Assembly: GCA_002717625.1 (NCBI GenBank)
Contig: PBEF01000008.1
Location: 1 to 64,000, forward strand
Direction of reading: 5' to 3'
Source of the DNA: Fidelibacterota bacterium
GTDB lineage: Bacteria; Fidelibacterota; Marinisomatia; SCGC-AAA003-L08; D37C17
DNA length: 64,000 bases
Notes under the pieces: generated by a model
Told to the model about the DNA's origin: nothing
The model's input: only the letters and a program-made list of their open reading frames with translations
Databases searched by the model: none
Part shown: positions 46,404 through 64,000 of the stretch, piece after piece
How the letters are laid out: each line of letters starts with the position of its first letter
Position numbering within the stretch: the stretch's first letter is position 1
Made by a program: the position numbers and the translations under genes

Positions 46404-47465
46404 TTAAAATACTCCTTTTTCAAATACTTCTGGGTTTTCAGCTATTTTTGCAGCTTCATTTCTATCAATTAAGCCTTGATGTAGAAGCCTTTGTAAATCT
46501 TGATCTAAAGTTTGCATACCATCTTGGCTTCCACCTTGAATTAATGATGGGATTTGATAAATCTTATCTTCCCTTACAAGGTTCCTTACAGCTGAATTTG
46601 CAATCATTATTTCACATGCAGCAACCCTTCCATTTTTATTTTTATTTTGGATTAGTTTCTGAGCTATTACAGCTAGTAAGCTTTCAGATAGCATCGAACG
46701 AATATGCTCTTTTTGTCCTGCAGGGAAAACATCTATTATACGGTCTATAGTTTTAACAGCGCTTGATGTATGCAGGGTTGATAGAACAAGGTGGCCTGTT
46801 TCTGCCGCTGTTAATGCCAACTGTATTGTTTCTAAATCACGCATTTCTCCAACAAGAATCACATCAGGGTCTTCTCTTAATGCAGATCTGATTGCATTTG
46901 CAAAGGAATGAGTTGACTGTCCTAATTCTCTTTGATTAATCATTGAATTTTTTGATGAATGAAAATATTCAACAGGATCTTCTATGGTAATGATATGCTT
47001 AGGTCTATTCTCATTGATGTGGTCAATCATCGCTGCGAGCGTTGTTGATTTTCCACTTCCAGTAGGCCCTGTTAGAAGAACAAGTCCTTTTTCCTTTAAA
47101 GCAAGCTGATTCATTATAGGAGGAATCCCTAATTCATCACATGATTTGATTTCATTTGGAATTGCTCTGAATACTGCAGACAAGCCGTTTATTTGGTTGA
47201 AAAAATTGACTCTGAAACGCCCTTTACCATCTAAAGCTACAGAAAAATCAATTTCAAGCCTTTCGTCAAATATATTTTTTTGATTTGCATTTAGAATTTC
47301 ATTTTTTATGGATTTCATAGTATCCAATTGAAGAATTGGTAATTGAAGTTTTTTCATCTCACCATGAATTCTCACCATTGGGATAGACCCAACGCTAAGA
47401 TGTAGGTCTGAAGCACCTACATCTAAGGCGTAGGAAAGCATCTCGTTTATAGTAGCGCTATTCAT
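46404..47465 (-). CDS. pilT: Pilus retraction ATPase PilT
   Basis: A 353-residue hexameric ATPase that depolymerises the pilus. It has the PilT N-terminal GASDLHLSVGSIPMVRIHGE, Walker A GPTGSGKSTT from residue 133, AIRSALREDPDVILVGEMRD, the His box GHLVLSTLHTSSAVKT, and the PilT-specific near-C-terminal QGLIDRNEAAKIAENPE. Its presence means a retractable pilus rather than a plain type II secretion system. It lies 36 bp after pilA. Confidence 0.96.
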   Translation of the reverse strand: MNSATINEMLSYALDVGASDLHLSVGSIPMVRIHGEMKKLQLPILQLDTMKSIKNEILNANQKNIFDERLEIDFSVALDGKGRFRVNFFNQINGLSAVFRAIPNEIKSCDELGIPPIMNQLALKEKGLVLLTGPTGSGKSTTLAAMIDHINENRPKHIITIEDPVEYFHSSKNSMINQRELGQSTHSFANAIRSALREDPDVILVGEMRDLETIQLALTAAETGHLVLSTLHTSSAVKTIDRIIDVFPAGQKEHIRSMLSESLLAVIAQKLIQNKNKNGRVAACEIMIANSAVRNLVREDKIYQIPSLIQGGSQDGMQTLDQDLQRLLHQGLIDRNEAAKIAENPEVFEKGVF

Positions 47466-47501
47466 TGTTAATTTATATACCGTTAAATACTGTTTATAAA
47501 A

Positions 47502-47942
47502 TTAGCACTCAGGCTCATCTTTTGTACCATATCCAGTGAATCTTCCTGTAACTGCGTCAAAACAAACAGTTTCTCCTTCACCGCCTGGCATGCCTTCTAA
47601 GCTTTCAGCCTTCATAAAGCCTTCTACCTCTCCATCAGTATTAACTTCAAGTTTCCAGGTTATATCCCATTTTTCTTTAGTTGATGAAGAAACATTAGCT
47701 GCGCCCTCTTCTTCCATCATATCTAAGTCTGTTGGAAAATCTGCATGAGTTGTTTTCCATATTTTACATTCTTCATATAATGTTTTGATTTGCGTATGAG
47801 CATCTGAAGCATATGCTTTTTCAACATAGTTGAAATATGTAGGGATTGCAATCGCTGCCAATATTCCAACAATTACAACAACAATTAGAATTTCAACTAG
47901 CGTAAATCCCTCTTGAACTTTTCTTTTAAATGTATGTAACAT
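47502..47942 (-). CDS. pilA: Major type IV pilin
   Basis: A 146-residue prepilin: 12-residue leader MLHTFKRKVQEG, then FTLVEILIVVVIVGILAAIA with Glu5, followed by PTYFNYVEKAYASDAHTQIK and a globular head with a Cys pair (Cys near 134 and the last residue). An AAGGAGA site (47951-47957, minus strand) is 8 bases before the ATG. It is the first gene of the 22-kb operon and diverges from the gene at 48188. Its abundance context suggests it is the major subunit. Confidence 0.93.
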   Translation of the reverse strand: MLHTFKRKVQEGFTLVEILIVVVIVGILAAIAIPTYFNYVEKAYASDAHTQIKTLYEECKIWKTTHADFPTDLDMMEEEGAANVSSSTKEKWDITWKLEVNTDGEVEGFMKAESLEGMPGGEGETVCFDAVTGRFTGYGTKDEPEC

Positions 47943-48187: not shown

Positions 48188-51100
48188 ATGTATTTATTTT
48201 TAATATTTTTTTCTTTTATTTCTTTTGTTTACTCGGAGGCTATATTTTTAAAAAGCAAAGGCCCTTTAAAGAGCGTTTTAGAAGTTAAGGATTTAGAACA
48301 AGAAAAAGCATTAGATGCTATTTTTGATGGACAAATTCCTGTTTATAGTACGTTGTATCAAATTAAAGATGGTATGGATATAGCAGTGTCTTATTCATGT
48401 GATAGTAACTCTATGCAGATTCTAGATTCATCTATTGAAGATGTTTTGCTTGAATCAGGGTATGACTTAGATCAAAATTCTATTTTCCCAAAAAATAATT
48501 TATTTGTATCTGAAGCTCAAATTTTCAGAGGTTTGGTTGTTAAGCAAGTAACATTTATTCCATTTAAATATAATATGCAAACAAAAGAGTTTATAATGTT
48601 ATCAGATATTCAGATTGATGTTGATGACTTCTCTGTTAATAATCCTATTCAATCTAATGGAAGCCTAAAAATTTCTAGAGCTTTTGAGCCTTTATATGAA
48701 AGCTTGATTGTTAATTATGAGAGATCAACTAGAGAAGAGGATTATCAAACTCCTTCAATATTATATATATGTGGTGGTTCATCTATTAATAATAGTTATG
48801 TTCAAGATCTGTTTGAATGGAGACATAAAAGAGGTTATATAGTTAATGCAGTTTCGACTGAAGATATAGGAGGCTCAAGTACGGCATCTGTTAAGGCTTA
48901 TATTCAAACAGCTTATGATAATTGGGAAAATCCACCAGAGATTGTAGGTCTTATTGGTGATACAGGTGGTAATTATGCTATTGGATATTATACAGAGGGG
49001 TGGTCCGGATATAGTGGTCCTGGAGATTTTCCATATTGCCAGCTAGATGGTTCAGATTTACTTCCAGAAATTTTTATAGGTAGAATTTCTGTTAATTCTG
49101 GTAGTGAATTAACAAATGTATTAAATAAAACATTAGCATATGAAAAGGCAACATATATCAATCAAACTGGTACGGATTGGTATGAAACAGCTTCTCTTGT
49201 TGGGGATCCATCCTCATCTGGTAATTCAACTATGATTACAGGAGAGTATATTGAAAATATTTTAAATGTATATGGCTTTGAAGACGTTAATACTAATTTT
49301 GGAAATGGTAATTATGATAATTGGCTAGAAAATGAATTAGAAAATGGAAGTTTATACATGAGTTATAGGGGATATTATGGCGCAAGTGGATTTGGGAGTG
49401 GTGAAATTAATAGCGCGAATAATGGATATCAAACACCTTTTGCATCATTTATTACATGTGGAACAGGTGACTTTCAATATACTGCTTTAAGTGAAGAGCT
49501 ATTTAGAGCAGGGAGTGTAAGTAATCCTAAAGGTGCTGTTGCCGCAGTTGGTACTGCTACAACTGGAACTCATACGTTATTTAATAATATTATGTCTATG
49601 GGCATTTTTGATGGGATTTTCCCAAAAAAATTAAAAACTGCAGGTGCTGCTGTAGCTAATGGCAGATTATCTTTATACTATACATACCCTTCAAATCCTA
49701 GTAATAAAGTCTCAATCTTTTCTCATTGGTTGAATTTGATAGGAGACCCAGGTTTGCATTTATGGACTGATACCCCATTAGGAATAAGCGCAAATTTCGA
49801 TAATTCTATTAGCTGGGGAACAAATTTTATTGATGTTGAAGTTATTGATGATAACGGTTATGTAGTTGAAGATGCGTTAATTACTCTTTTAAAAGGTAAT
49901 GATGAGATATTTTTATCAACATTAACAGATTCGCAGGGACGTGCTACAATAATGTTAGACTATGAATCTATTGGAGAGGTATATTTAACTGTAACTAAAC
50001 AAAATTGTATTCCAGTTGAAGAATCATTCCAGATTACTCAACCAAATCATAATGTGAATTTAAGTGTTTCAGATATTGAGATTTTAGATCAGGATGGTAC
50101 TGATAATATAGTATTAGGCAATAATGATGGTTATTTAAACCCAGGTGAAATAGTATACTTATCTTTGCCTGTATTAAATTATGGATTTGTTGAGTCAAAT
50201 GATATAGTTGGAATTTTAACTTCAGACTCTCCTCTAGTTAATGTTATTTATGGAATTAGCTCATATGATGATTTGTCATCGAATTCTATGAGCTACAATA
50301 ATAGTAGTTACATAATAGAGATTGCTCCAGATGCATTAGATGGTGCTGACTTAGATTTAAAGTTATCAATATCTAGCTCTAATGGATCTTGGGAATCTAT
50401 GGTTCCTATTGATTTAAAAGGTGGTTTAATAGTTGTTGATCATGTTGAATATAGCAGTGGTTCTGTGTTGATTCCTGGGCAGGAGGCTGATATAATGGTT
50501 TACTTTTCAAATGAGGGTTCAATAGATTTGGAGGATGTTTCAATAGAGCTTCTTCCATCAGGCTCTTTAATTGAAGTTATTGAGTCTTATGCTACTTTTG
50601 GTAATATCCCTTCAGGCTCTATGATTGGATCTACTAATAATGCTTTAAGTCTTTTTATCAGTGGAAATACTATTAATGGATCAAATTTATCTGTTAATGC
50701 TAGAGTGTTGAGTAGTAATGGATATGACCAAAATATTGTTTTTAATATACAGGCAGGAGAGGTATCTGTAGTTGACCCTCTTGGTCCGGATGACTATGGA
50801 TATTATATATATGATTCTCAAGATTTAGGATATAGTTTGGCCCCTATCTATGATTGGATTGAAATAGATAATGATTTTGGTGGTGATGGAATAAATTTAA
50901 ATTTATCAGATGGTGGTGATGGAAATAATATTAATAGCAGTCTTGCAGTTATTAATTTACCATTTGATTTCACTTTTTATGGTGTCTCTTATGATAGAAT
51001 AACAGTTAATACAAATGGTTGGATAGCTTTTGGTGAAAGTAGCTTAGAGTCTTTCAGAAATTATCCTATTCCTGGTGCAGGAGGCCCCTCTCCTATGCTT

Positions 51101-51670
51101 GCAGTTTTTTGGGATGATTTGAAAACTACAAATGGAGCAGAAGTATATAAGTATATTGGTGATAATTTTGTAATAGTTCAGTGGTCTGGAATGAGAACAT
51201 ACAACAATAATTCAAGTGAAACTTTTCAGGCTATTTTATATGCTGATACTCTAACTCCTACAGGAGATAATGAAATTAAATTACAGTATAAAGATTTTAA
51301 TAATACTTCAAATGGGAATTTGTCAGGATGGGGTAATACGCATGGAGGATATGCCACAATAGGAATTGAGAATCATCTGTCTACTATAGGATTACAGTAT
51401 ACATTTAATAATGTATATTCAGAAGCAGCTATGCCTTTATCTGATAATTCAGCATTATTTATTACAACGCGTAATCCTGTAGAAACTTTATTAGGTGATG
51501 CTAATCAAGATGGTGAAGTAAACGTAATAGATGTAGTTGTGATTGTTAATCATATTTTGGTATTAGAATTGCTTTCTTCTATGGGTGTTTATATGTCTGA
51601 TATGGATGGGGATAATGTGATAACTATATTAGATGTAATTCAAGTTATTCAAACTGTTCTTAGCGAATAG
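48188..51670 (+). CDS. C25 (gingipain-family) secreted protein with dockerin-like tail
   Basis: An 1160-residue exported protein with a signal peptide (1-17). A propeptide-like region (20-180) precedes a C25 domain (about 185-530): SILYICGGSSINNSYVQDLF, EWRHKRGYIVNAVST, and FITCGTGDF with the nucleophile Cys at 424. The catalytic His position of the family (YxGHG) reads YRGYYG at 393-398, so the His is missing. An Ig-like domain (about 535-620), two more beta regions, and a nidogen-like part (INLPFDFTFYGVSYDRITV, TNGWIAFG) follow. The last 60 residues are two dockerin-type units (GDANQDGEVNVIDVVVIVN, and MDGDNVITILDVIQVIQ). It may be an inactive relative or use another base. Confidence 0.82.
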   Translation: MYLFLIFFSFISFVYSEAIFLKSKGPLKSVLEVKDLEQEKALDAIFDGQIPVYSTLYQIKDGMDIAVSYSCDSNSMQILDSSIEDVLLESGYDLDQNSIFPKNNLFVSEAQIFRGLVVKQVTFIPFKYNMQTKEFIMLSDIQIDVDDFSVNNPIQSNGSLKISRAFEPLYESLIVNYERSTREEDYQTPSILYICGGSSINNSYVQDLFEWRHKRGYIVNAVSTEDIGGSSTASVKAYIQTAYDNWENPPEIVGLIGDTGGNYAIGYYTEGWSGYSGPGDFPYCQLDGSDLLPEIFIGRISVNSGSELTNVLNKTLAYEKATYINQTGTDWYETASLVGDPSSSGNSTMITGEYIENILNVYGFEDVNTNFGNGNYDNWLENELENGSLYMSYRGYYGASGFGSGEINSANNGYQTPFASFITCGTGDFQYTALSEELFRAGSVSNPKGAVAAVGTATTGTHTLFNNIMSMGIFDGIFPKKLKTAGAAVANGRLSLYYTYPSNPSNKVSIFSHWLNLIGDPGLHLWTDTPLGISANFDNSISWGTNFIDVEVIDDNGYVVEDALITLLKGNDEIFLSTLTDSQGRATIMLDYESIGEVYLTVTKQNCIPVEESFQITQPNHNVNLSVSDIEILDQDGTDNIVLGNNDGYLNPGEIVYLSLPVLNYGFVESNDIVGILTSDSPLVNVIYGISSYDDLSSNSMSYNNSSYIIEIAPDALDGADLDLKLSISSSNGSWESMVPIDLKGGLIVVDHVEYSSGSVLIPGQEADIMVYFSNEGSIDLEDVSIELLPSGSLIEVIESYATFGNIPSGSMIGSTNNALSLFISGNTINGSNLSVNARVLSSNGYDQNIVFNIQAGEVSVVDPLGPDDYGYYIYDSQDLGYSLAPIYDWIEIDNDFGGDGINLNLSDGGDGNNINSSLAVINLPFDFTFYGVSYDRITVNTNGWIAFGESSLESFRNYPIPGAGGPSPMLAVFWDDLKTTNGAEVYKYIGDNFVIVQWSGMRTYNNNSSETFQAILYADTLTPTGDNEIKLQYKDFNNTSNGNLSGWGNTHGGYATIGIENHLSTIGLQYTFNNVYSEAAMPLSDNSALFITTRNPVETLLGDANQDGEVNVIDVVVIVNHILVLELLSSMGVYMSDMDGDNVITILDVIQVIQTVLSE

Positions 51671-51685
51671 TGATTCTTTATTAAA

Positions 51686-52840
51686 TTGGATCCCATTTCT
51701 TTAACATTATTATTATTAATTTTTATATTAATATTATTTGGATTGATTGAAAATTATTTCCATTTTAAATCCTTAAGTAATATTCCTATTCGAATTCATG
51801 TTAATGGAACTCGTGGTAAATCTAGTGTTACCCGTCTGATTGCTGCTGGTTTACGTTATGGTGGTTTGAAAACTTTTGGTAAAACAACTGGTACAACTCC
51901 TAGAATTATTGACGATAATGGGAATGATGTAGAAATTTATAGATTGCGTAGTGCATCAATTGGAGAGCAAATTAAATTAATTCGTTATTTTTCTAAAAAA
52001 AAGCCTGATGCACTCGTAATAGAATGTATGGCTGTTAACCCTCAATATCAATGGGTTTCAGAACACAGAATTGTAAAATCAACATTAGGCGTAATAACTA
52101 ATGTTAGACCTGATCACCTTGATGAAATGGGAACCTCTAATTATGAAATAGCGTTATCCTTAAGTAATACTATCCCCTTTGATTCAACTATTATAACAGC
52201 TGAAAATAATATGATAAAGCCTATTAAGGATGTAGCTAAGGATAGAAATTCAACATTGATTGTTTCTAGCGCTGATGATATTGATAAGCAATATATTAAT
52301 GATTTTCCATTTATTGAACATCCTGAAAATATTGCATTGGCATTAAAAGTTTGTACTTCATTAGGTATTAATACAGAAGCAGCTTTAGAAGGAATGAGAA
52401 AAACAAAGCCTGATCCTGGTGCATTATTTATTTGGAATATAAAATATGGTAAAAATAAGTGTAAATTTATCAGTGGTTTTGCAGCTAATGATCCCAGTTC
52501 TACTATGATGGTTTGGAATTTAATAAAAGATAGATTTTCTGGAAAGAGCTGTATTTTCCTTAACACTAGAAATGATAGAAGATATAGAACTGTTCAGTTG
52601 ATTAGCTTGGTAATGAAGGATATTAAACCTGATTTATTTATTATTAGAGCAGATAATGTTATGGGTATTTTAGATAAATATGAGCTTAATGAAAATTCCT
52701 TTAAGTTGTTTGATATGTTATCAACTCCAGATCAAATTGTAGATGAAATTATTCAGCTTGATAAATACTATGTTCTGGGTATAGGTAATATTGTTGGATG
52801 GGGTGAAAATTTTGTTAATAAAATAAAAGGGTACACTTAA
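51686..52840 (+). CDS. pgsB: Poly-gamma-glutamate synthase ligase subunit PgsB/CapB
   Basis: A 384-residue Mur-ligase-like enzyme that joins glutamate through gamma-carboxyl amide bonds using ATP. An N-terminal membrane helix (5-22) is followed by the P-loop VNGTRGKSSVTRLIAA (Gly41-Ser46), FGKTTGTTPRII, VIECMAVNPQYQWVSE and TNVRPDHLDEMGTS, all typical of PgsB. The start is TTG at 51686; no ATG gives the membrane helix. It is 15 bp after the C25 gene and directly abuts pgsC. Confidence 0.94.
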   Translation: MDPISLTLLLLIFILILFGLIENYFHFKSLSNIPIRIHVNGTRGKSSVTRLIAAGLRYGGLKTFGKTTGTTPRIIDDNGNDVEIYRLRSASIGEQIKLIRYFSKKKPDALVIECMAVNPQYQWVSEHRIVKSTLGVITNVRPDHLDEMGTSNYEIALSLSNTIPFDSTIITAENNMIKPIKDVAKDRNSTLIVSSADDIDKQYINDFPFIEHPENIALALKVCTSLGINTEAALEGMRKTKPDPGALFIWNIKYGKNKCKFISGFAANDPSSTMMVWNLIKDRFSGKSCIFLNTRNDRRYRTVQLISLVMKDIKPDLFIIRADNVMGILDKYELNENSFKLFDMLSTPDQIVDEIIQLDKYYVLGIGNIVGWGENFVNKIKGYT

Positions 52841-53356
52841 ATGGAGTCTATGGATTTTTTATTAGGTACCGAATATAATTATACTTATATAGCTATAGGT
52901 TTGGGTATGGTTATTAGTTTGTTTTTAACAGAAACTTTGGGTATTATGGCTGGAGGAATTATTGTTCCTGGATATTTTGCCCTATATCTTCATAATCCTG
53001 CTAAAATTATATTTACTTTCTTGATTAGTATGTTAGCCTATTTGATTGTTTATCTATTATCAAAAATTATTTTAATCTATGGTAGACGTAGATTGATTCT
53101 ATCACTTCTTACAGGTTTTTTCTTAGGGTATATATTAAGAATAGTTCTTGATAATTCTGGATTTCAAATTATGGTTAATGATAATTGGATTCAGTTGGAA
53201 TATATAGGCTATATTATTCCTGGATTAATTGCTTCTTGGATGGATAGACAAGGTATATTAAGAACAGCATCTGTTGTCCTAATTGTTGCTAGTATAGTTA
53301 ATTTAATTATGATGTATATATATTATTTAGATCAATTTAGAATTTTATATGTTTAG
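52841..53356 (+). CDS. pgsC: Poly-gamma-glutamate synthase membrane subunit PgsC/CapC
   Basis: A 171-residue protein with about five membrane helices and the PgsC features LTETLGIMAGGIIVPGYFAL and RRRLILSLLTGFFLGYILR. It partners PgsB at the inner membrane for polymer synthesis or transfer. Its ATG follows the pgsB stop with no gap, and it overlaps pgsW by 8 bp. Confidence 0.93.
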   Translation: MESMDFLLGTEYNYTYIAIGLGMVISLFLTETLGIMAGGIIVPGYFALYLHNPAKIIFTFLISMLAYLIVYLLSKIILIYGRRRLILSLLTGFFLGYILRIVLDNSGFQIMVNDNWIQLEYIGYIIPGLIASWMDRQGILRTASVVLIVASIVNLIMMYIYYLDQFRILYV

Positions 53357-54491
53357 ACCTCAAATACAGAAAACAACTACTTTATTTTTCATCGCATTAT
53401 TTAATGTTTTTATGGTTTATATATCTGTTAATTCATATGTGAAAGTTTCACAGTCAGGTATTGATGAAAGAATAAATGCTACACAAAAAATGAATTTTAT
53501 TTTAGAAAAAATAAAAAATGAATTTAATAATTTTCAGGAAAATGATATTTATAATAGTGGCATTATGGGTGTTGAAAAAAGTTCTATTACCTCTGTTTCA
53601 GATTTAGATGAATCAATGTTAGTTTCAAAACAAATAACTACTCACCCTAATTTTGCAGCTTTAATAGTGGCATTATTTCAAGAAGCTAATTTAGTGAAAG
53701 GAGATACTATCGCTGTATCTATGACTGGTTCATTTCCTGGAGCTAATATTGCTCTTCATTCTGCATGTATCACTATGGATATAACTCCTATTATTATGAG
53801 TTCCATATCATCATCTTCTTGGGGGGCAAATATTGATAATCTATCATGGCCTATTATGGAGTCATATTTATATGATAATAATTTTATTAATTCTAAAAGC
53901 ATTGCTTATTCTATTGGTGGGAAAAATGATATAGGGAGTCAGATAGACTCTTTGGGTATTGATAGGATTGTCTCTATTGCTCATGACGCTACAGATGATG
54001 GGGTCATTTTTATTAATGAACAAACATTACAAGATAATATATTAGCGAAAATTGATTTATTGAGAGAAAAAAGTCGTAATTATTCTGCTTATATTAATAT
54101 AGGAGGGGGTTCTGCTTCAATGGGAAAAGGTATTTTTAAAGATACTGCGCAAGTAGGTCTTCTTACTCCACTTGATATAGAGTATATGGATTTGAGTGGA
54201 TTTGAAGAATCTATTGCTTATGAATTTATTAAGCCTGAAAGTGATATGTATAAGCAGGTTCCAATTATAAATATTAAAAATATTAAAAAATTAACAAAAA
54301 ACTTATTTCATATAGATAAAGGAATAGAGATGTATGAAGGAGCTTTATTTTATAAATATTATAGATATAATCCCTTTGTAATTTTATTAAGTTTATTATT
54401 AACATTAGGGCTTATTATTGGAGTTGGTTTATATAGTCATTTACAGATAAAAAGAAGAATGGAGAGCAATGAAATTGATTCAATTATATAA
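53349..54491 (+). CDS. pgsW: Poly-gamma-glutamate system protein PgsW
   Basis: A 380-residue protein with a membrane helix at each end (about 10-30 and 343-365) and a large extracytoplasmic domain containing NFAALIVALFQEANLVKGDT, VSMTGSFPGANIALHSACI and NIGGGSASMGKGIFKDTAQV. This matches what is annotated as the poly-gamma-glutamate system protein found beside pgsBC where no PgsA/CapA is present. Biochemical role is unknown. It overlaps pgsC by 8 bp and the next gene by 23 bp. Confidence 0.85.
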   Translation: MFRPQIQKTTTLFFIALFNVFMVYISVNSYVKVSQSGIDERINATQKMNFILEKIKNEFNNFQENDIYNSGIMGVEKSSITSVSDLDESMLVSKQITTHPNFAALIVALFQEANLVKGDTIAVSMTGSFPGANIALHSACITMDITPIIMSSISSSSWGANIDNLSWPIMESYLYDNNFINSKSIAYSIGGKNDIGSQIDSLGIDRIVSIAHDATDDGVIFINEQTLQDNILAKIDLLREKSRNYSAYINIGGGSASMGKGIFKDTAQVGLLTPLDIEYMDLSGFEESIAYEFIKPESDMYKQVPIINIKNIKKLTKNLFHIDKGIEMYEGALFYKYYRYNPFVILLSLLLTLGLIIGVGLYSHLQIKRRMESNEIDSII

Positions 54492-55440
54492 AATAGTAAT
54501 ATTATTAATATTATTTCCTGTATCGCTTTTTTGTGATGCTATTAAGCCTAATTCAGCTAAGAATGAAAATAAAATTAATTTGGTTATTGATACGAGTAAA
54601 GGTAAAAAACAAAGAGCTTATTATTTAGTTGATGATGATGGTTTGCTTTTTAAGACTAAAGATTTTTTAAAACAAGGATTTAGAAATGGAGATAGGCTGA
54701 ACTTTCAAATTATGTCAAGGACATACTTGGCTTCTAGTAATGATAATCGTAAAAAATTTCAGTTTCATTTAATTATCAAAAAGAAAGGCCAGATTATTGT
54801 TGATAGGGAATTAACTTATAATAAAAAAGTTTCATCTGCTACTAGTCCTGAAGATAAGAAAGGATTCTCTTTTACATATTCGGGTTATTGGTTTGAAGAT
54901 TTAAAATTGACAAAAGATTTAGAAATTTATATTAAACCTATAGATGGTATGGAGCAAAAGGTTTATGCTCGATTGATTGCTAGAAAAAATTATAAATCAA
55001 CAAAAACTAAAAAAAGAATTTTTCCTGTTGATTATCAAAAAAATATTACTGTTTCAGAGTCTGGTAAAAATCAAAAAAGAGATTGGTATTTATTGACAAG
55101 TGATAACAAGCAACAGTTTAAATTAGATCCCAATGGTAGATATCAGGTATTAACAAGATTGGTCCTAGGTAATAAAGTACTAGATGAACAGCAATATTAT
55201 AAGCTGATTGCTTATGAAAATAATCAAAAACTAGGTAGTTATATTATGGAGGGGAATCCATCTTTAACTAATGCTATAATAGAAAAATCTAGTAAAAATT
55301 TAAAAGGTAAACTATTAAGTAAATATAGTTCATTTTTTATTAGTGTCCCTGATAACAATGAAAAGTATTCATATTATACATTTAAATTGCCAAAAGAAGA
55401 TGATAGTAAGGTTTTAATTAAAATATTAGAGTATGAATAA
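54469..55440 (+). CDS. Predicted periplasmic protein of the pgs locus, two-repeat
   Basis: A 323-residue protein with a signal peptide (1-23, ending SLFCDA). I do not recognise the family. The mature part seems to hold two related beta-rich halves: one around residues 45-165 (KKQRAYYLVDDDGLLFKTKD, NGDRLNFQIMSRTYL) and one around 195-300 (QKRDWYLLTSDNKQQFKLDP, NGRYQVLTRLVL). It is Lys/Tyr-rich. It overlaps pgsW by 23 bp and the next gene by 8 bp, so it is part of the same translation unit. An export or assembly role for the polymer is inferred from position only. Confidence 0.7.
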   Translation: MKLIQLYKIVILLILFPVSLFCDAIKPNSAKNENKINLVIDTSKGKKQRAYYLVDDDGLLFKTKDFLKQGFRNGDRLNFQIMSRTYLASSNDNRKKFQFHLIIKKKGQIIVDRELTYNKKVSSATSPEDKKGFSFTYSGYWFEDLKLTKDLEIYIKPIDGMEQKVYARLIARKNYKSTKTKKRIFPVDYQKNITVSESGKNQKRDWYLLTSDNKQQFKLDPNGRYQVLTRLVLGNKVLDEQQYYKLIAYENNQKLGSYIMEGNPSLTNAIIEKSSKNLKGKLLSKYSSFFISVPDNNEKYSYYTFKLPKEDDSKVLIKILEYE

Positions 55441-56515
55441 AATAGATAAATTTATAATTGTATTTTTATTTTTTATATTTTCTGCATCTTCTTTAAGCGG
55501 ACAAATATATAAGCCTAATTCATTTTCTTCTTCTGTGATTTTTGGCCATGATTCTAATCCTCTTAGATTATCTGAAGATGAAATCAGTCAATTATCAGAT
55601 AAACCATATTTATTAGGTTCTGCATCTGATGTATATTCAAGATTTATAGGCCTTAATGCAAAGTTCTCATTTTATTCTAGGAAAGCTATTTTAGCAAAAA
55701 TTTTTGATAGAAAAACTAGTTTTAGTTTTTCTGTTACTTATAAAAAATATTTTGATAACAAAGAAAAAAATAGTCAGTATTTTACGTTTAAGATTAATCA
55801 ACAGTTAGATAAATATAGGCGTTTACACATAAACTATTCTCTTATGCCTCAATATTATATAAGGCAATATGAGGACTTAGATTATCTTATTTCATATGGG
55901 GATATTGATGATATATCAAGGCATTATTCTTGTACATTCGATATGGAAAAATTATATATAATTTTTCAAGCACCTCTTTCTTTAATACAAAACAAGGTGA
56001 AAGTAGGTGCTTTTTATGAGCGTCAAATTTTTAGTCCTTATTTTACGGAATTCGATCTAAATATAGCAGGTCAATCAATTCAGTTTTTATTTAAAGGTGA
56101 TAATAATTATTTTAATAGTAATAGAACAGTCAGTTTTCTTTATGAAAAACATATTGGTGATAATAGCACATTTTTAAGTGAAGTTTTTTCAGCGAATTAT
56201 ATGAATAGAGATTATAAACAACATCGATATAAAGTATCCTTTAATCAAACTATAAATTCATCTAAATCTTTTGGATTTATTATTGATACATATAAAAGAT
56301 TTAACACATCAAAAATCGTAACTGATGAGTTGCATTATAAAAGAAAGCATACAGACCTAACTTTATCAATTTGGTATAAAAAAGACAGATCCAAAATTAT
56401 GTTGTCTAATAGAAAAAGAGTTGCACGTTCTCCTTTCGGGTGGGTTGAAGAGCTTAAATCTTTTGATAGATATATTTTAACTTTAACAATGACCTTAGCT
56501 AATAAGAAATTTTAA
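55433..56515 (+). CDS. Predicted outer-membrane beta-barrel protein of the pgs locus
   Basis: A 360-residue protein with a signal peptide (1-23, SASSLSGQ). The rest is made of alternating amphipathic beta strands rich in Tyr, Phe and Ser, such as KTSFSFSVTYKKYFDN, QYFTFKINQQLDKYRRLHIN and RYILTLTMTLANKKF, ending in the C-terminal Phe typical of barrels inserted by Bam. No family is recognised. It overlaps the previous gene by 8 bp. In a diderm making poly-gamma-glutamate it could be the outer-membrane exit, which is inference. Confidence 0.7.
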   Translation: MNKIDKFIIVFLFFIFSASSLSGQIYKPNSFSSSVIFGHDSNPLRLSEDEISQLSDKPYLLGSASDVYSRFIGLNAKFSFYSRKAILAKIFDRKTSFSFSVTYKKYFDNKEKNSQYFTFKINQQLDKYRRLHINYSLMPQYYIRQYEDLDYLISYGDIDDISRHYSCTFDMEKLYIIFQAPLSLIQNKVKVGAFYERQIFSPYFTEFDLNIAGQSIQFLFKGDNNYFNSNRTVSFLYEKHIGDNSTFLSEVFSANYMNRDYKQHRYKVSFNQTINSSKSFGFIIDTYKRFNTSKIVTDELHYKRKHTDLTLSIWYKKDRSKIMLSNRKRVARSPFGWVEELKSFDRYILTLTMTLANKKF

Positions 56516-56521
56516 ATTATT

Positions 56522-57694
56522 ATGATAAAAAAAATATATATACTTTTATTGTTATTATTTTTAGGATGTCAAAATCGTCATAATCCATTCAGTGAAAACA
56601 CATTTGGAGTATGTTCTGAATTTGGTTCTAATTGGTGTAGTAATTTAGATATTTTAGAAAATGTAGGGAGAGTAAGAGATCTACACTTTGACTCCAACCG
56701 TCTTTTTGTTGCGACGGAAGATAGAGGGATATATATATATGATATTTTATCTGAAGAAGGTGAAAATTCATATTTACTTAAAAATGGACAGTTCCTAGAT
56801 CAGGTTTATGAAAGTGAAGAGTGGGGGGTTGGTAAAGATTTAAGAAGTATTTATTATGCTGATGAATATGATATGTTATTTGCTTTAGATTATAACAATA
56901 ATACATATTTAGGTTATGTTGATATTCTTATATCTAGTTCAACTTCGCTTGTTCAAAATTCATGTGGTCCAGATGCAAATGCTAGAAAGTTTTTTATTAA
57001 TACTAATTCTGATAATCCTGAAATATATATATTATATAAGTGTTTTGAAGGTTCTTCTCAATGTATTAATAATCCATATCAAAATGTTGCTACAACTGTA
57101 TTGCAATCATTAGGTTCTTCATTATATGATGACTTTGAGTTTTTTGGAGATTTTTCAACATCTTCATCTTGTGATGCATCGCCTCAAATTCCTGATTTAA
57201 GTGTTGATGTTAATGATATGTTTTTTAATGATAATCATTTTTTTATTGCTAATCCTAGTAGTGGTGTAAATTCCTTTGGAGTTTATGATATGAATGGAAA
57301 TTTATTAGATGAGTATATCACAGATTCTCCTGTGCGTTCTATTTATGCTCTTAGTTTGGATGGTAGTGCAAATAATATTATCCTTGCAGGTACAGAAAAT
57401 GGATGTTACATAACGTTACTAGATGATGGTGGTATCTCTGATATTTCTGAATCTAAATTAATAATAGCAGAAGGTCTGACTATATATGATATATTTTATG
57501 AAAATAATCGTTTAATTTTATCTTCTGGTCCTAGAGGCATGTTAGTATATGATTGGGATAATATGTTATCTGAACCTATAGAATATTTGAGGATATTTTC
57601 AACTAATTCAGAATATAGTTCTGTTACAAGATTTTATAATGGGATGTATTTTGTTGGTACTGAATATGGTTTGCAAATTTATAATTTAGATTAA
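56522..57694 (+). CDS. Beta-propeller-like surface lipoprotein
   Basis: A 390-residue protein with a lipobox (LLLLFLGCQ, Cys at residue 16). The mature part has repeated strand patterns VRDLHFDSNRLFVATEDRGI, DVNDMFFNDNHFFIANPSSG, IYDIFYENNRLILSSGPRGM and VTRFYNGMYFVGTEYGLQIY, about 45-residue blades as in LVIVD-type propellers. Several Cys lie between blades. It is 6 bp after the barrel gene and 11 bp before the next, so it may be cotranscribed with the pgs genes. Function is unknown. Confidence 0.7.
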   Translation: MIKKIYILLLLLFLGCQNRHNPFSENTFGVCSEFGSNWCSNLDILENVGRVRDLHFDSNRLFVATEDRGIYIYDILSEEGENSYLLKNGQFLDQVYESEEWGVGKDLRSIYYADEYDMLFALDYNNNTYLGYVDILISSSTSLVQNSCGPDANARKFFINTNSDNPEIYILYKCFEGSSQCINNPYQNVATTVLQSLGSSLYDDFEFFGDFSTSSSCDASPQIPDLSVDVNDMFFNDNHFFIANPSSGVNSFGVYDMNGNLLDEYITDSPVRSIYALSLDGSANNIILAGTENGCYITLLDDGGISDISESKLIIAEGLTIYDIFYENNRLILSSGPRGMLVYDWDNMLSEPIEYLRIFSTNSEYSSVTRFYNGMYFVGTEYGLQIYNLD

Positions 57695-57705: not shown

Positions 57706-60612
57706 ATGATAAATAAGATTTATATACTTTTGTTTTTTTGTTTAGTTTTTGCCCAGTATGATTGGAATGATAATGGTGTTCCTGTTAGACAGGGTATTCA
57801 TATTGAATGGCAAAGGACAGGAGATAATGGCAATACAGGTGAAATGATTTTTGCTTGGTCTGACACTAGATATGGTGGTCGTGATATATATATCCAGAAA
57901 GTAGATGTAAATGGTAATCCTTTATGGGGGCCAGAAGGCTCCCCTGTTGTTCTAGAAGATGGTAGGCAAGAAGATCCTATATTGGTATCTGATGGTAATG
58001 GAGGAGCCTATATTATTTGGGTTGATTATAGAGATGAGCCTGATTATGGTGATATCTATGGACAGCATATTCAACCAGATGGCTCTTTATCTTGGGATCC
58101 TTCAGGAGTTCCATTGACAAATGTTCCAGGAAAACAGGTATCTCCTAATATGTCTACAGATGGAATAGGAGGTGCTTTTGTAATATGGAATGATTTATCT
58201 GTAAGTACATTGGGCCATACTTATGGTACTCATTTAACAACTAATGTTAACGATATTATTGCTCCAGGAACAGGAGTCCCTTTGATTGCAAATGATTCAG
58301 ATCATTCAGGTGTAAGTATAGAAAAAGCTCAAAATGGTAGCGCTGTGATGGTTTGGGCTGATGATAGAAATAATGATAATTCAGATATTGATATTTATAC
58401 TCAAAGAATTGATATTTCATGTAATACTCTGTGGTCTACTCCTGAAGAAGGCGGAATCCCTTTATGCAGTGCTCAGGGAGACCAGCAGTATGCCAAGGTA
58501 ACATATTATAGTCAAAATGCTTCTGTTGTAGTCTGGGAAGATAAAAGATCTAACCCAAGTTTGGGAGATATTTATATTCAGTATATTGATATGAATGGAA
58601 ATGTATTGTTAGATGCTGTTGGAGAGCCTATTTGTACTAATGGAGCGAATCAAATTAAACCACGTGTAAAAGCCGCTTCAGATGGAGCTTATATTGTTTG
58701 GGAAGATTCTAGAAATGGCCCTGGTGATATATTTTTACAAAAGCATACTTTGGAACAAGGTTCTGAATTTGTTTCTGATGGTTTAGCAGTATGTACAGCT
58801 TCAGGAGCTCAGGATCAACCAAGGTTAACTACAGATGGGAATGGGGGTGTTTATGTTGTATGGATGGATGAAAGATATGCAGCGTTCCCTGAAACTGAAA
58901 TTTTCATGCAACATATAGATGGTTCTACAAATGAAGTTTCTTTTGAGCAAGATGGAATTGCTGTATGTGCAGCTTCTGGGTTTCAATTTAATCCTCTAGT
59001 TAGAAATGATGGTAATGGTAATGCTTTTGCTCTATGGGGAGATATGAGGTCAGGTAGTATAGGTTTATTTACTCAACATATAAGTCCTAGCCAAGGTACT
59101 GGTTTAGATAACAATGGTGTTGAATTATATTTTGGTATTGATGGTAACGGTTTGCAGGCTAAATCATTATATTTGGGTAATGATGAGTCTCTTTTATATT
59201 GGGAAGATAATCGTTTAGGTGTGTTCGCAGATTTGACTTATGGTCAAAAGGTTTATGATGGTTGGGAGGATTTAACAGAGCCTAATGGCTTAAAATTATG
59301 TGATAATCCATATCAGTTATATCCTAAAGTTGAATTAGGAACCCCTAATGGAGATATATTTTTAGGCTTTGGTCAGGCATTTGGAGATATTGCTTTGCAT
59401 TATCAGCCTCTTGATAATGATTTACAAATGATAGGGGGAACAGATCAAGGAATTCCTGTTTATAATTCTTTTACACCTCAAAATAGTTTTGATTTAGCTT
59501 ATTCTGATGATGGTAATGTTTATTTTGCATTTTCAGATCAGAGAAATTTTATTGATAGCGATATATATCTTCAAAAATATAATGATTTTTCTAATGAATA
59601 TTCAGAGCCTTTATTGATTGTAGATAATTTTTTTGTAGATGATAATATAAGATTTATTTCAACTACTCCAGATTATGGTTGTTTTATAACATATGATAGT
59701 GGTGATTTTAGTGGAACCAGAGCGTATGCAATTGCAGTAGATGCAGATGGAAATATTATAGATGCTTTTAATGGTGGAATTAGACTTTCAAATAATGAAA
59801 ATGATCAATTTATTAGAGGCTTGGTTAAAACATCTTCTGGTTATTTTGTAATATGGAAGGATCAGAGGTCTGGTTCTTCTGATATATATGGTCAAATGTT
59901 GGATTTTGATGGTAATGTTTTAGGTCCACTTGATGGAATTCCGATTTCCACTGCAGCTAATGATCAGCAATCTCCAGCAGTAACTTATAATAGTGATTTA
60001 AATGAAATTATGGTTTGTTGGGAAGATTTTAGAAATGGTACTGATTTTGATATATTCTGTTCATCTATTGATGAAGCTTCTTTATCGGTTACATCAGATA
60101 TTGATTTGTGTACATATAGTGGAAATCAAAAAACTCCAAGTGTATATGCAACTTTAGATGGCAGTTATATTTTTGCTTGGGAGGATTCTAGAGGTAGCGT
60201 GACATCTAATATCTATTTCCAGTTAATGCAAAATGGAACTTTTACGTATGATCAAGATGGGATTGTTATGTGCGATGCAGACTTTAATCAACTAACTCCT
60301 CAGATTGATTTATATAGTGAAAGTGATAATTCCTATATTGTTTTTTGGGATGATATGAGGAGTTCAGGTAAGGAAGATTTAAGCAACATTTATATTCAAT
60401 CAGTAACTATTTTATCAGATGATTTAGAGTGCACACTAATGGATGTTAATAATGATGGTGTTGTTAATGTAATAGATATTGTAGGAACAGTTAATTTAAT
60501 ATTAGGTGATACAGCCCCTACTCCTTTAGAGTCTTGCGCAGCTGATGCTAACCAAGATGGAATTATTAATGTTATTGATATTGTTACACTTGTCAATTAT
60601 ATTTTATCTTAA
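57706..60612 (+). CDS. Secreted W-x-D-x-R repeat protein with dockerin-like tail
   Basis: A 968-residue exported protein (signal peptide 1-17, LLFFCLVFAQ). Residues 40-900 hold about 15 repeats of 50-60 residues with a core such as IWVDYRDEPDYGDIYGQHI, VWEDKRSNPSLGDIYIQYID, VWEDSRNGPGDIFLQ and IWKDQRSGSSDIYGQ, preceded by a GGAYI-type strand. The shape suggests two beta-propellers. The last 65 residues are two dockerin-like units (DVNNDGVVNVIDIVGTVN and DANQDGIINVIDIVTLVNYI). No catalytic motif is recognised. It probably binds a surface ligand. Confidence 0.75.
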   Translation: MINKIYILLFFCLVFAQYDWNDNGVPVRQGIHIEWQRTGDNGNTGEMIFAWSDTRYGGRDIYIQKVDVNGNPLWGPEGSPVVLEDGRQEDPILVSDGNGGAYIIWVDYRDEPDYGDIYGQHIQPDGSLSWDPSGVPLTNVPGKQVSPNMSTDGIGGAFVIWNDLSVSTLGHTYGTHLTTNVNDIIAPGTGVPLIANDSDHSGVSIEKAQNGSAVMVWADDRNNDNSDIDIYTQRIDISCNTLWSTPEEGGIPLCSAQGDQQYAKVTYYSQNASVVVWEDKRSNPSLGDIYIQYIDMNGNVLLDAVGEPICTNGANQIKPRVKAASDGAYIVWEDSRNGPGDIFLQKHTLEQGSEFVSDGLAVCTASGAQDQPRLTTDGNGGVYVVWMDERYAAFPETEIFMQHIDGSTNEVSFEQDGIAVCAASGFQFNPLVRNDGNGNAFALWGDMRSGSIGLFTQHISPSQGTGLDNNGVELYFGIDGNGLQAKSLYLGNDESLLYWEDNRLGVFADLTYGQKVYDGWEDLTEPNGLKLCDNPYQLYPKVELGTPNGDIFLGFGQAFGDIALHYQPLDNDLQMIGGTDQGIPVYNSFTPQNSFDLAYSDDGNVYFAFSDQRNFIDSDIYLQKYNDFSNEYSEPLLIVDNFFVDDNIRFISTTPDYGCFITYDSGDFSGTRAYAIAVDADGNIIDAFNGGIRLSNNENDQFIRGLVKTSSGYFVIWKDQRSGSSDIYGQMLDFDGNVLGPLDGIPISTAANDQQSPAVTYNSDLNEIMVCWEDFRNGTDFDIFCSSIDEASLSVTSDIDLCTYSGNQKTPSVYATLDGSYIFAWEDSRGSVTSNIYFQLMQNGTFTYDQDGIVMCDADFNQLTPQIDLYSESDNSYIVFWDDMRSSGKEDLSNIYIQSVTILSDDLECTLMDVNNDGVVNVIDIVGTVNLILGDTAPTPLESCAADANQDGIINVIDIVTLVNYILS
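57850..60400 (+). repeat. About 15 degenerate coding repeats, W-x-D-x-R type
   Basis: Units of roughly 150-180 bp inside the gene at 57706-60612, each encoding a strand, then [VIL]W[EVAK]D[KSYDQ]R and D-I-[YF]-x-Q. The third, tenth and twelfth units are the most decayed. Limits are approximate. Confidence 0.65.
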
Positions 60613-62899: not shown

Positions 62900-64000
62900 G
62901 TGAAAAGAGTTATGGCTTTATTGTTTGTAGGTACAGTTTTATTAGCAGGAGAATTAAGGTCTCTTGTAATGCAACCATTTGATTCTGTAAATCAAACTTA
63001 TAATTATCAGAGAGGTTCTTATCTGATTCTTCTTCCAGAGGGTTTGAATGAAACTTTTCTTACTAATGAAAATTATGGTGGAAATTTTGTTAAGTTTAAA
63101 AAATCTCAAGGTTTTGATGTAGAAGTGTTGATAATTTCAAGTAATTTAACAGCCCAACAAGTTAAAGATACTATTGTTATACCTTTTTATGAGTCTAACC
63201 CGATGCTTGAATATGTCCTTTTAGTAGGTGATGTTAATGGTACTTTTTCTATTCCAACATTTACAATTCCCTCATATAACGAAGAAGATATTGATGTTAC
63301 AGATTACCCCTATACTTTTACGGATAATGCATATGAACCACATTTTTTTTTAGGACGTTGGCCTATTAGAACGACAGCTGATTTTTTAAATATTAAAAGT
63401 AGAAGTATCCAATATGTTACAATGGAGAATATAGATGATTATTCTTATTTGAATAAGGCGATGCTTGTAGCTGGAAATTATAAAACAGCAGAAGGAGAGG
63501 AGGTTCCTCCTAACCAATGGCCTGTTACTCCTGTTTGGACGTCATTGTGGTTAATGGAAGAATGGCAGGATTTTGGATATACGGAAATAGATACAGCCTT
63601 TTTTCATCAATATAATTGGGAAACTGGTGAATATAATCCTACTATACCTAATACGTGGGATGATGGTGTGGGAATTATCAACTATAGAGGATGGGGTGAT
63701 GGTAATGGTTGGCATAAACCTTATTTTCATAAAGAGGAATTAGAAGGATTAAATAATGGTTGGAATTTACCTATTGTTTTGAGTTTTGTGTGTAATACTG
63801 GTGACTTTGGTAATGACTATAGTGGAAGTGGTTTATCTAAATGCTTTGGAGAGGTTATGGTTACAGCAGGTAGTGTGATTAATCCAAAGGGTGCTGCTGC
63901 AATGGTTGGGCCATCTGACCTTGATACAGACACTAGATTTAATAATGTTATTTGTGGAGAAATGTGGGATGCTCTTCTTGAGCAAGATGCTCCTGAATTA
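62900..64000 (+). CDS. C25 (gingipain-family) secreted protein, 5' part (partial)
   Basis: The frame opens at GTG 62900 and is still open at the window end (367 codons). The N-terminus MKRVMALLFVGTVLLAGELR is a signal peptide; the ATG at 62895 is followed by TGA after one codon, so GTG (or ATG 62912) is the start, with GGGAGG at 62885-62890 upstream. The C25 fold is seen in YLILLPEGLNETFLTN, EYVLLVGDVNGTFSIPTF, HFFLGRWPIRTTADFLNIKS and SFVCNTGDFG with Cys298. The usual catalytic His position reads INYRGWGDGNGW (Trp265), exactly 33 residues before the Cys; His272 is nearby. Confidence 0.85.
   Translation, partial: MKRVMALLFVGTVLLAGELRSLVMQPFDSVNQTYNYQRGSYLILLPEGLNETFLTNENYGGNFVKFKKSQGFDVEVLIISSNLTAQQVKDTIVIPFYESNPMLEYVLLVGDVNGTFSIPTFTIPSYNEEDIDVTDYPYTFTDNAYEPHFFLGRWPIRTTADFLNIKSRSIQYVTMENIDDYSYLNKAMLVAGNYKTAEGEEVPPNQWPVTPVWTSLWLMEEWQDFGYTEIDTAFFHQYNWETGEYNPTIPNTWDDGVGIINYRGWGDGNGWHKPYFHKEELEGLNNGWNLPIVLSFVCNTGDFGNDYSGSGLSKCFGEVMVTAGSVINPKGAAAMVGPSDLDTDTRFNNVICGEMWDALLEQDAPEL

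Follow-up and report, generated by a model that had tools for sequence, protein, structure and literature searches.

A poly-gamma-glutamate synthase locus of Fidelibacterota linked to three new envelope proteins, candidate components for polymer export

The window analyzed in this study, that is, the whole stretch of 64,000 nucleotides, comprises positions 1 to 64,000 of contig PBEF01000008.1 (forward strand; assembly GCA_002717625.1) from a Fidelibacterota bacterium. It contains a chain of six genes, in which pgsB, pgsC, and pgsW of the poly-gamma-glutamate system are followed by genes for a periplasmic protein, an outer-membrane barrel, and a lipoprotein. Their coordinates, abutments, and overlaps, as given in a preliminary description of this DNA, were confirmed to the base:

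51686-52840, + strand: pgsB, with a TTG start, encoding the Mur-ligase-type poly-gamma-glutamate synthase subunit with an N-terminal membrane segment
52841-53356, + strand: pgsC, abutting pgsB, encoding the multi-spanning inner-membrane synthase subunit
53349-54491, + strand: pgsW, overlapping pgsC by 8 bp, encoding a poly-gamma-glutamate system protein
54469-55440, + strand: gene for an undescribed periplasmic protein with a signal peptide and two tandem jelly-roll domains, overlapping pgsW by 23 bp
55433-56515, + strand: gene for an undescribed 14-stranded outer-membrane beta-barrel, overlapping the periplasmic protein gene by 8 bp
56522-57694, + strand: lipoprotein gene, 6 bp after the barrel gene

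PgsB matched TIGR04012 of NCBIfam with 412.5 bits (cut-off 222.7) over residues 8-380 of 384, and also PF08245 (1.4e-10); a hydropathy segment covered residues 1-28. PgsC, encoded by the adjacent gene, matched TIGR04011 (125.2 bits, NCBIfam cut-off 96.45) and PF14102 (5.7e-35) and displayed four hydropathy segments. PgsW scored 213.1 bits against TIGR04332 of NCBIfam (cut-off 100) and had membrane segments at residues 9-31 and 339-365 by hydropathy, one per end, with the approximately 300 residues between them probably periplasmic. By family membership, the locus contains a poly-gamma-glutamate synthase. A single-sequence search of genome contigs with PgsB returned matches within the phylum, mainly Candidatus Neomarinimicrobiota records that carry the label Fidelibacterota in the PgsB tree, and sequence searches of the PDB with PgsB, PgsC, the periplasmic protein, and the barrel gave nothing useful.

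The periplasmic protein, the barrel, and the lipoprotein had no match in Pfam or NCBIfam. Judged by these family searches, the three envelope components are new, and the synthase part was already known. Weak Pfam matches scattered among members of the barrel and periplasmic protein alignments (best E value 3e-4, few members each) were regarded as chance.

The AlphaFold2 model of the periplasmic protein (predicted local distance difference test [pLDDT] 89.7; predicted template modelling score [pTM] 0.68) was nearly all beta and formed two beta-sandwich (jelly-roll) domains. The two halves were homologous in profile comparison (probability 98%, E value 8e-14), far above 20 column shuffles (0.5% or less), and are therefore taken as an internal duplication. 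Foldseek matched the model to tandem CBM22 domains, malectin-like ectodomains, PNGase F, and BcsB (E value 2.5e-4, a weak likeness); since whole-chain template modelling (TM) scores were below 0.3, the similarity is confined to the domain fold. The barrel foreseen in the preliminary description was borne out by a confident AlphaFold2 model with 14 strands (pLDDT 90.8, pTM 0.86). Its best global fold match was CymA (TM-score approximately 0.52), and OccD, BamA, and chitoporin were also among the matches. In the alignment of the lipoprotein (A5) the lipobox Cys was invariant (C16), and the repeats of this protein are likely propeller-like.

The mature periplasmic protein of the window carries a net charge of +21. 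Across 40 loci, with 25 residues removed, the median was +5.1 per 100 residues; the lipoprotein, C25 protein, and repeat protein encoded alongside it had about -9. In all 35 loci compared, the periplasmic protein was more basic than the neighboring lipoprotein, and a net charge of +4 or more per 100 residues was reached by none of 31 other signal-peptide-like open reading frames. For the barrel, positions called inward from the hydrophobic parity of the sequence and the predicted strands held 22.5% Lys/Arg and 11.5% Asp/Glu, compared with 5.1% and 4.5% at outward positions. In the mature barrel, Arg occupied positions 121, 236, 266, 281, 304, and 306 in 89-100% of members. Such a basic lumen is the pattern expected of a polyanion channel, a fit rather than a demonstration. 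Because both the periplasmic protein and the predicted lumen are basic, a role in carrying a polyanion gains independent support.

A set of 245 Fidelibacterota genomes, including fragmented metagenome-assembled genomes (MAGs), was searched with one profile each for the periplasmic protein (A1), the barrel (A2), and PgsW. Matches were found in 96, 97, and 100 genomes, respectively. Barrel and PgsW occurred together in 95 genomes, PgsW alone in 5, the barrel alone in 2, and neither in 143; the association (Fisher 5.6e-59, overstated since the genomes are related) can be read as very strong. The contig ended at the missing gene in both barrel-only genomes (G186 and G233) and in three of those with PgsW only (G159, G177, and G223), so that PgsW was truly without a barrel only in G078 and G235. 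Contig ends aside, the barrel and periplasmic genes were not found away from pgsBCW in these 245 genomes; the preliminary description had named their wide occurrence without pgsBC as a refutation. Among 83 full-length lipoprotein homologues, 81 adjoined a barrel gene; of the other two, one lay at a contig end (G224) and one on a different contig from its barrel (G152). The order C25 gene, pgsB, pgsC, pgsW, periplasmic protein gene, barrel gene, lipoprotein gene, repeat protein gene recurred from family to family within the class. The start codon of the periplasmic protein gene was exactly 23 bp inside pgsW in 32 of 40 loci, and the keeping of this overlap suggests that the two genes are translationally coupled. 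With its conserved order and 23-bp overlap, the gene chain is more than chance.

The co-occurrence of barrel and PgsW, the 23-bp overlap, the confident models, the charges, and the precedent of AlgE, which has an electropositive pore for an anionic polymer and works with periplasmic AlgK (PMC4118822), argue that the locus is probably a dedicated trans-envelope conduit that makes and exports anionic poly-gamma-glutamate. Synthesis is assigned by family. The export proposed in the preliminary description agrees with the co-occurrence, the barrel model, and the basic periplasmic protein and lumen, and we infer the export step itself from these. PgsB and PgsC would polymerize glutamate at the inner membrane, and PgsW, anchored in the membrane at each end, would stand in place of Bacillus PgsA/CapA and accept the chain at the periplasmic face. 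The periplasmic protein is proposed as a candidate polymer-binding carrier: its fold, duplication, charge, and linkage suggest that the basic tandem jelly-rolls bind the polyanion and pass the chain through the periplasm. The barrel, with its lumen rich in Arg and Lys, is proposed as a candidate outer-membrane exit channel and would release the polymer as AlgE does alginate. The lipoprotein may be an accessory anchored in the outer membrane, perhaps a plug or a surface retention factor.

Several observations weigh against a conduit. The closest folds of the barrel are small-solute channels at modest TM-scores (CymA, 0.52; OccD), the lumen composition comes from the parity calls and not from model coordinates, and the net charge is negative in some barrels and in one periplasmic protein. 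No TPR match of the kind that a periplasmic scaffold would give was found among the locus proteins or nearby. Genus g9 (L093 and L094; three related MAGs) keeps the barrel and lipoprotein genes with no detectable periplasmic protein gene; pgsW of this genus is longer (461 aa). Finally, both this phylum and the Fusobacteria include pgsBCW loci that lack the barrel.

The barrel-less arrangement, lacking the barrel, periplasmic protein, and lipoprotein genes, was found in G078, in G235, and as a second copy in G155 (L085, L086, and L087), the last genome having both types. It was flanked by genes for gamma-glutamyltransferases and AstE/AspA-like enzymes, with an added racemase (a lipoprotein-like Asp/Glu racemase) in G235. 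Cetobacterium, a diderm of the Fusobacteria, has a similar barrel-less, ggt-flanked arrangement (L121), and the one PgsW match on plasmids was from Cetobacterium. The order pgsB-pgsC-pgsW is common to both types; the window locus differs in having no linked ggt or AstE/AspA-like genes, in its three envelope genes, and in its separate PgsB branch. In the PgsB tree the barrel-locus proteins formed one group against four barrel-less ones (support 94/97, with long branches). The preliminary description had argued that a diderm would need such a passage through periplasm and outer membrane; this was not supported, because Fidelibacterota themselves and the diderm Cetobacterium have pgsBCW without the barrel. 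From these sequence comparisons, the barrel block is the mark of one pgsBCW lineage and not a general diderm need.

Compared with the Bacillus systems PgsBCA(E) and CapBCA(DE), the locus has the same PgsB and PgsC families, above cut-offs and in the same order. It differs in having PgsW, no PgsA/CapA or CapD, and three additional genes for envelope proteins, and in that its product would have an outer membrane to cross. The lack of PgsA/CapA stated in the preliminary description applies to the locus, where no PF09587 protein was found, and not to the genome, which encodes two unlinked ones. Likewise, no CapD-type gamma-glutamyltransferase is linked to the locus; two PF01019 proteins are encoded on other contigs. 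A survey of capsule systems reported polyglutamate loci in most phyla, many of them diderm, with a model in which CapB and CapC are the sole mandatory parts and no outer-membrane component is named (PMC5542703). Among open-licence texts, none was found on polyglutamate in Marinimicrobia, on PgsW, or on the components described here.

Synthase-dependent exopolysaccharide secretion (AlgE/AlgK for alginate, BcsB/BcsC for cellulose) likewise combines an inner-membrane synthase, a periplasmic beta-sandwich partner, and an outer-membrane barrel with a basic lumen encoded with the synthase. The window locus has a peptide ligase instead of a glycosyltransferase, a barrel of 14 instead of 16-18 strands, and no TPR scaffold among its proteins, and no sequence homology to AlgE, BcsC, or PgaA was found by Pfam or PDB sequence search. 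By analogy, the locus would work like synthase-dependent polysaccharide secretion without being a member of it. CymA also has a 14-stranded barrel, at approximately 10% identity, and has no relation to polymer synthesis; it takes up cyclodextrins. No barrel homologues were found in viral contigs.

The same-strand run is longer than six genes, starting at 48188 and extending past the window end. After the lipoprotein gene come two dockerin-tailed genes and then a second C25 gene, all three of exported type, with gaps of 11-17 bp. A terminator scan of the operon gave 11 sites (5.2 expected), all weak and lying either within coding regions or on the opposite strand. The neighbors named in this study are:

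48188-51670, + strand: C25-family gene for an exported protein with a dockerin tail, 15 bp upstream of pgsB
57706-60612, + strand: gene for a large repeat protein with a dockerin tail, beside the lipoprotein gene
62900-64000 (to the window end): second C25-family gene

Type IV pilus genes (a PilT-like ATPase and a pilin-like protein; 46404-47942, - strand) lie divergently upstream, and several relatives (L095-L098, L017, and L019) have genes at the same position matching them in length and strand. The repeat protein matched PF00404 (1.4e-9) and no confident family beyond this dockerin tail; a large acidic repeat protein is kept beside the lipoprotein in most loci. The first C25 protein matched PF01364 (3.9e-49) and, in its tail, PF00404 (4.3e-8), and is one of nine C25 matches in the genome. 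The locus-linked C25 proteins (48188-51670, 62900-64000, and L126-L133) have YRG followed by a non-His residue at the place where three further C25 proteins encoded in the genome carry YxGH(G/A), and every aligned C25 protein retains the Cys motif; as peptidases, the linked proteins may be altered or inactive. An assignment of the C25 protein as the type IX sortase PorU was considered and rejected because of the low NCBIfam scores (no NF033707 match; best relative 40 bits, cut-off 420) and the nine C25 matches. Orthologous C25 proteins end by species in a dockerin or a type IX secretion system (T9SS) sorting tail (48188-51670; L105:73-5502; L116:9140-13999), as if the two were interchangeable.

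These neighbors allow another explanation, in which the polymer, still exported by the conduit, anchors the operon's exported C25 and dockerin- or T9SS-tailed proteins at the surface or forms a matrix for them, loosely comparable to the role of anionic lipopolysaccharide for type IX cargo in Porphyromonas. The linkage of C25 persists although its gene is upstream in one class and follows the lipoprotein gene in families f28, f30, and f31; this, the alternation of tails among orthologues, and the SprA encoded in the genome are in its favor. The linked C25 proteins, however, have no YxGH motif and fall far below the PorU cut-offs, and the locus protein is only one of nine; we consider this role unlikely. 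It is quite improbable that the function is uptake, with the barrel and periplasmic protein making up a channel that scavenges acidic peptides or glutamate released by secreted peptidases, part of which PgsBC would polymerize. Peptidase-like genes for secreted proteins are adjacent and the folds that best match the barrel belong to substrate-specific uptake porins, but the two genes are strictly tied to pgsBCW and not to a transporter, no ATP-binding cassette (ABC) or tripartite ATP-independent periplasmic (TRAP) partner was recognized in the conserved block, and tandem jelly-rolls are unlike solute-binding proteins. Alternatively, the three envelope proteins could be a module with some other function that is only co-inherited with pgsBCW, which in its ggt type manages without them; this is very improbable given their phylum-wide one-to-one occurrence, fixed order, preserved overlapping frames, and charge fit.

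The preferred reading thus remains a trans-envelope conduit for poly-gamma-glutamate. A broader version, in which three new families form a polyglutamate exporter that evolved apart from polysaccharide exporters and also decorates or retains type IX- or dockerin-tailed surface proteins, is speculative and rather unlikely as a whole. The locus allows specific proteins to be named as candidates for carrying polyglutamate through the periplasm and outer membrane of diderms, and provides Fidelibacterota (formerly Marinimicrobia, SAR406), an uncultured marine phylum, with a candidate two-membrane route for exporting this polymer.

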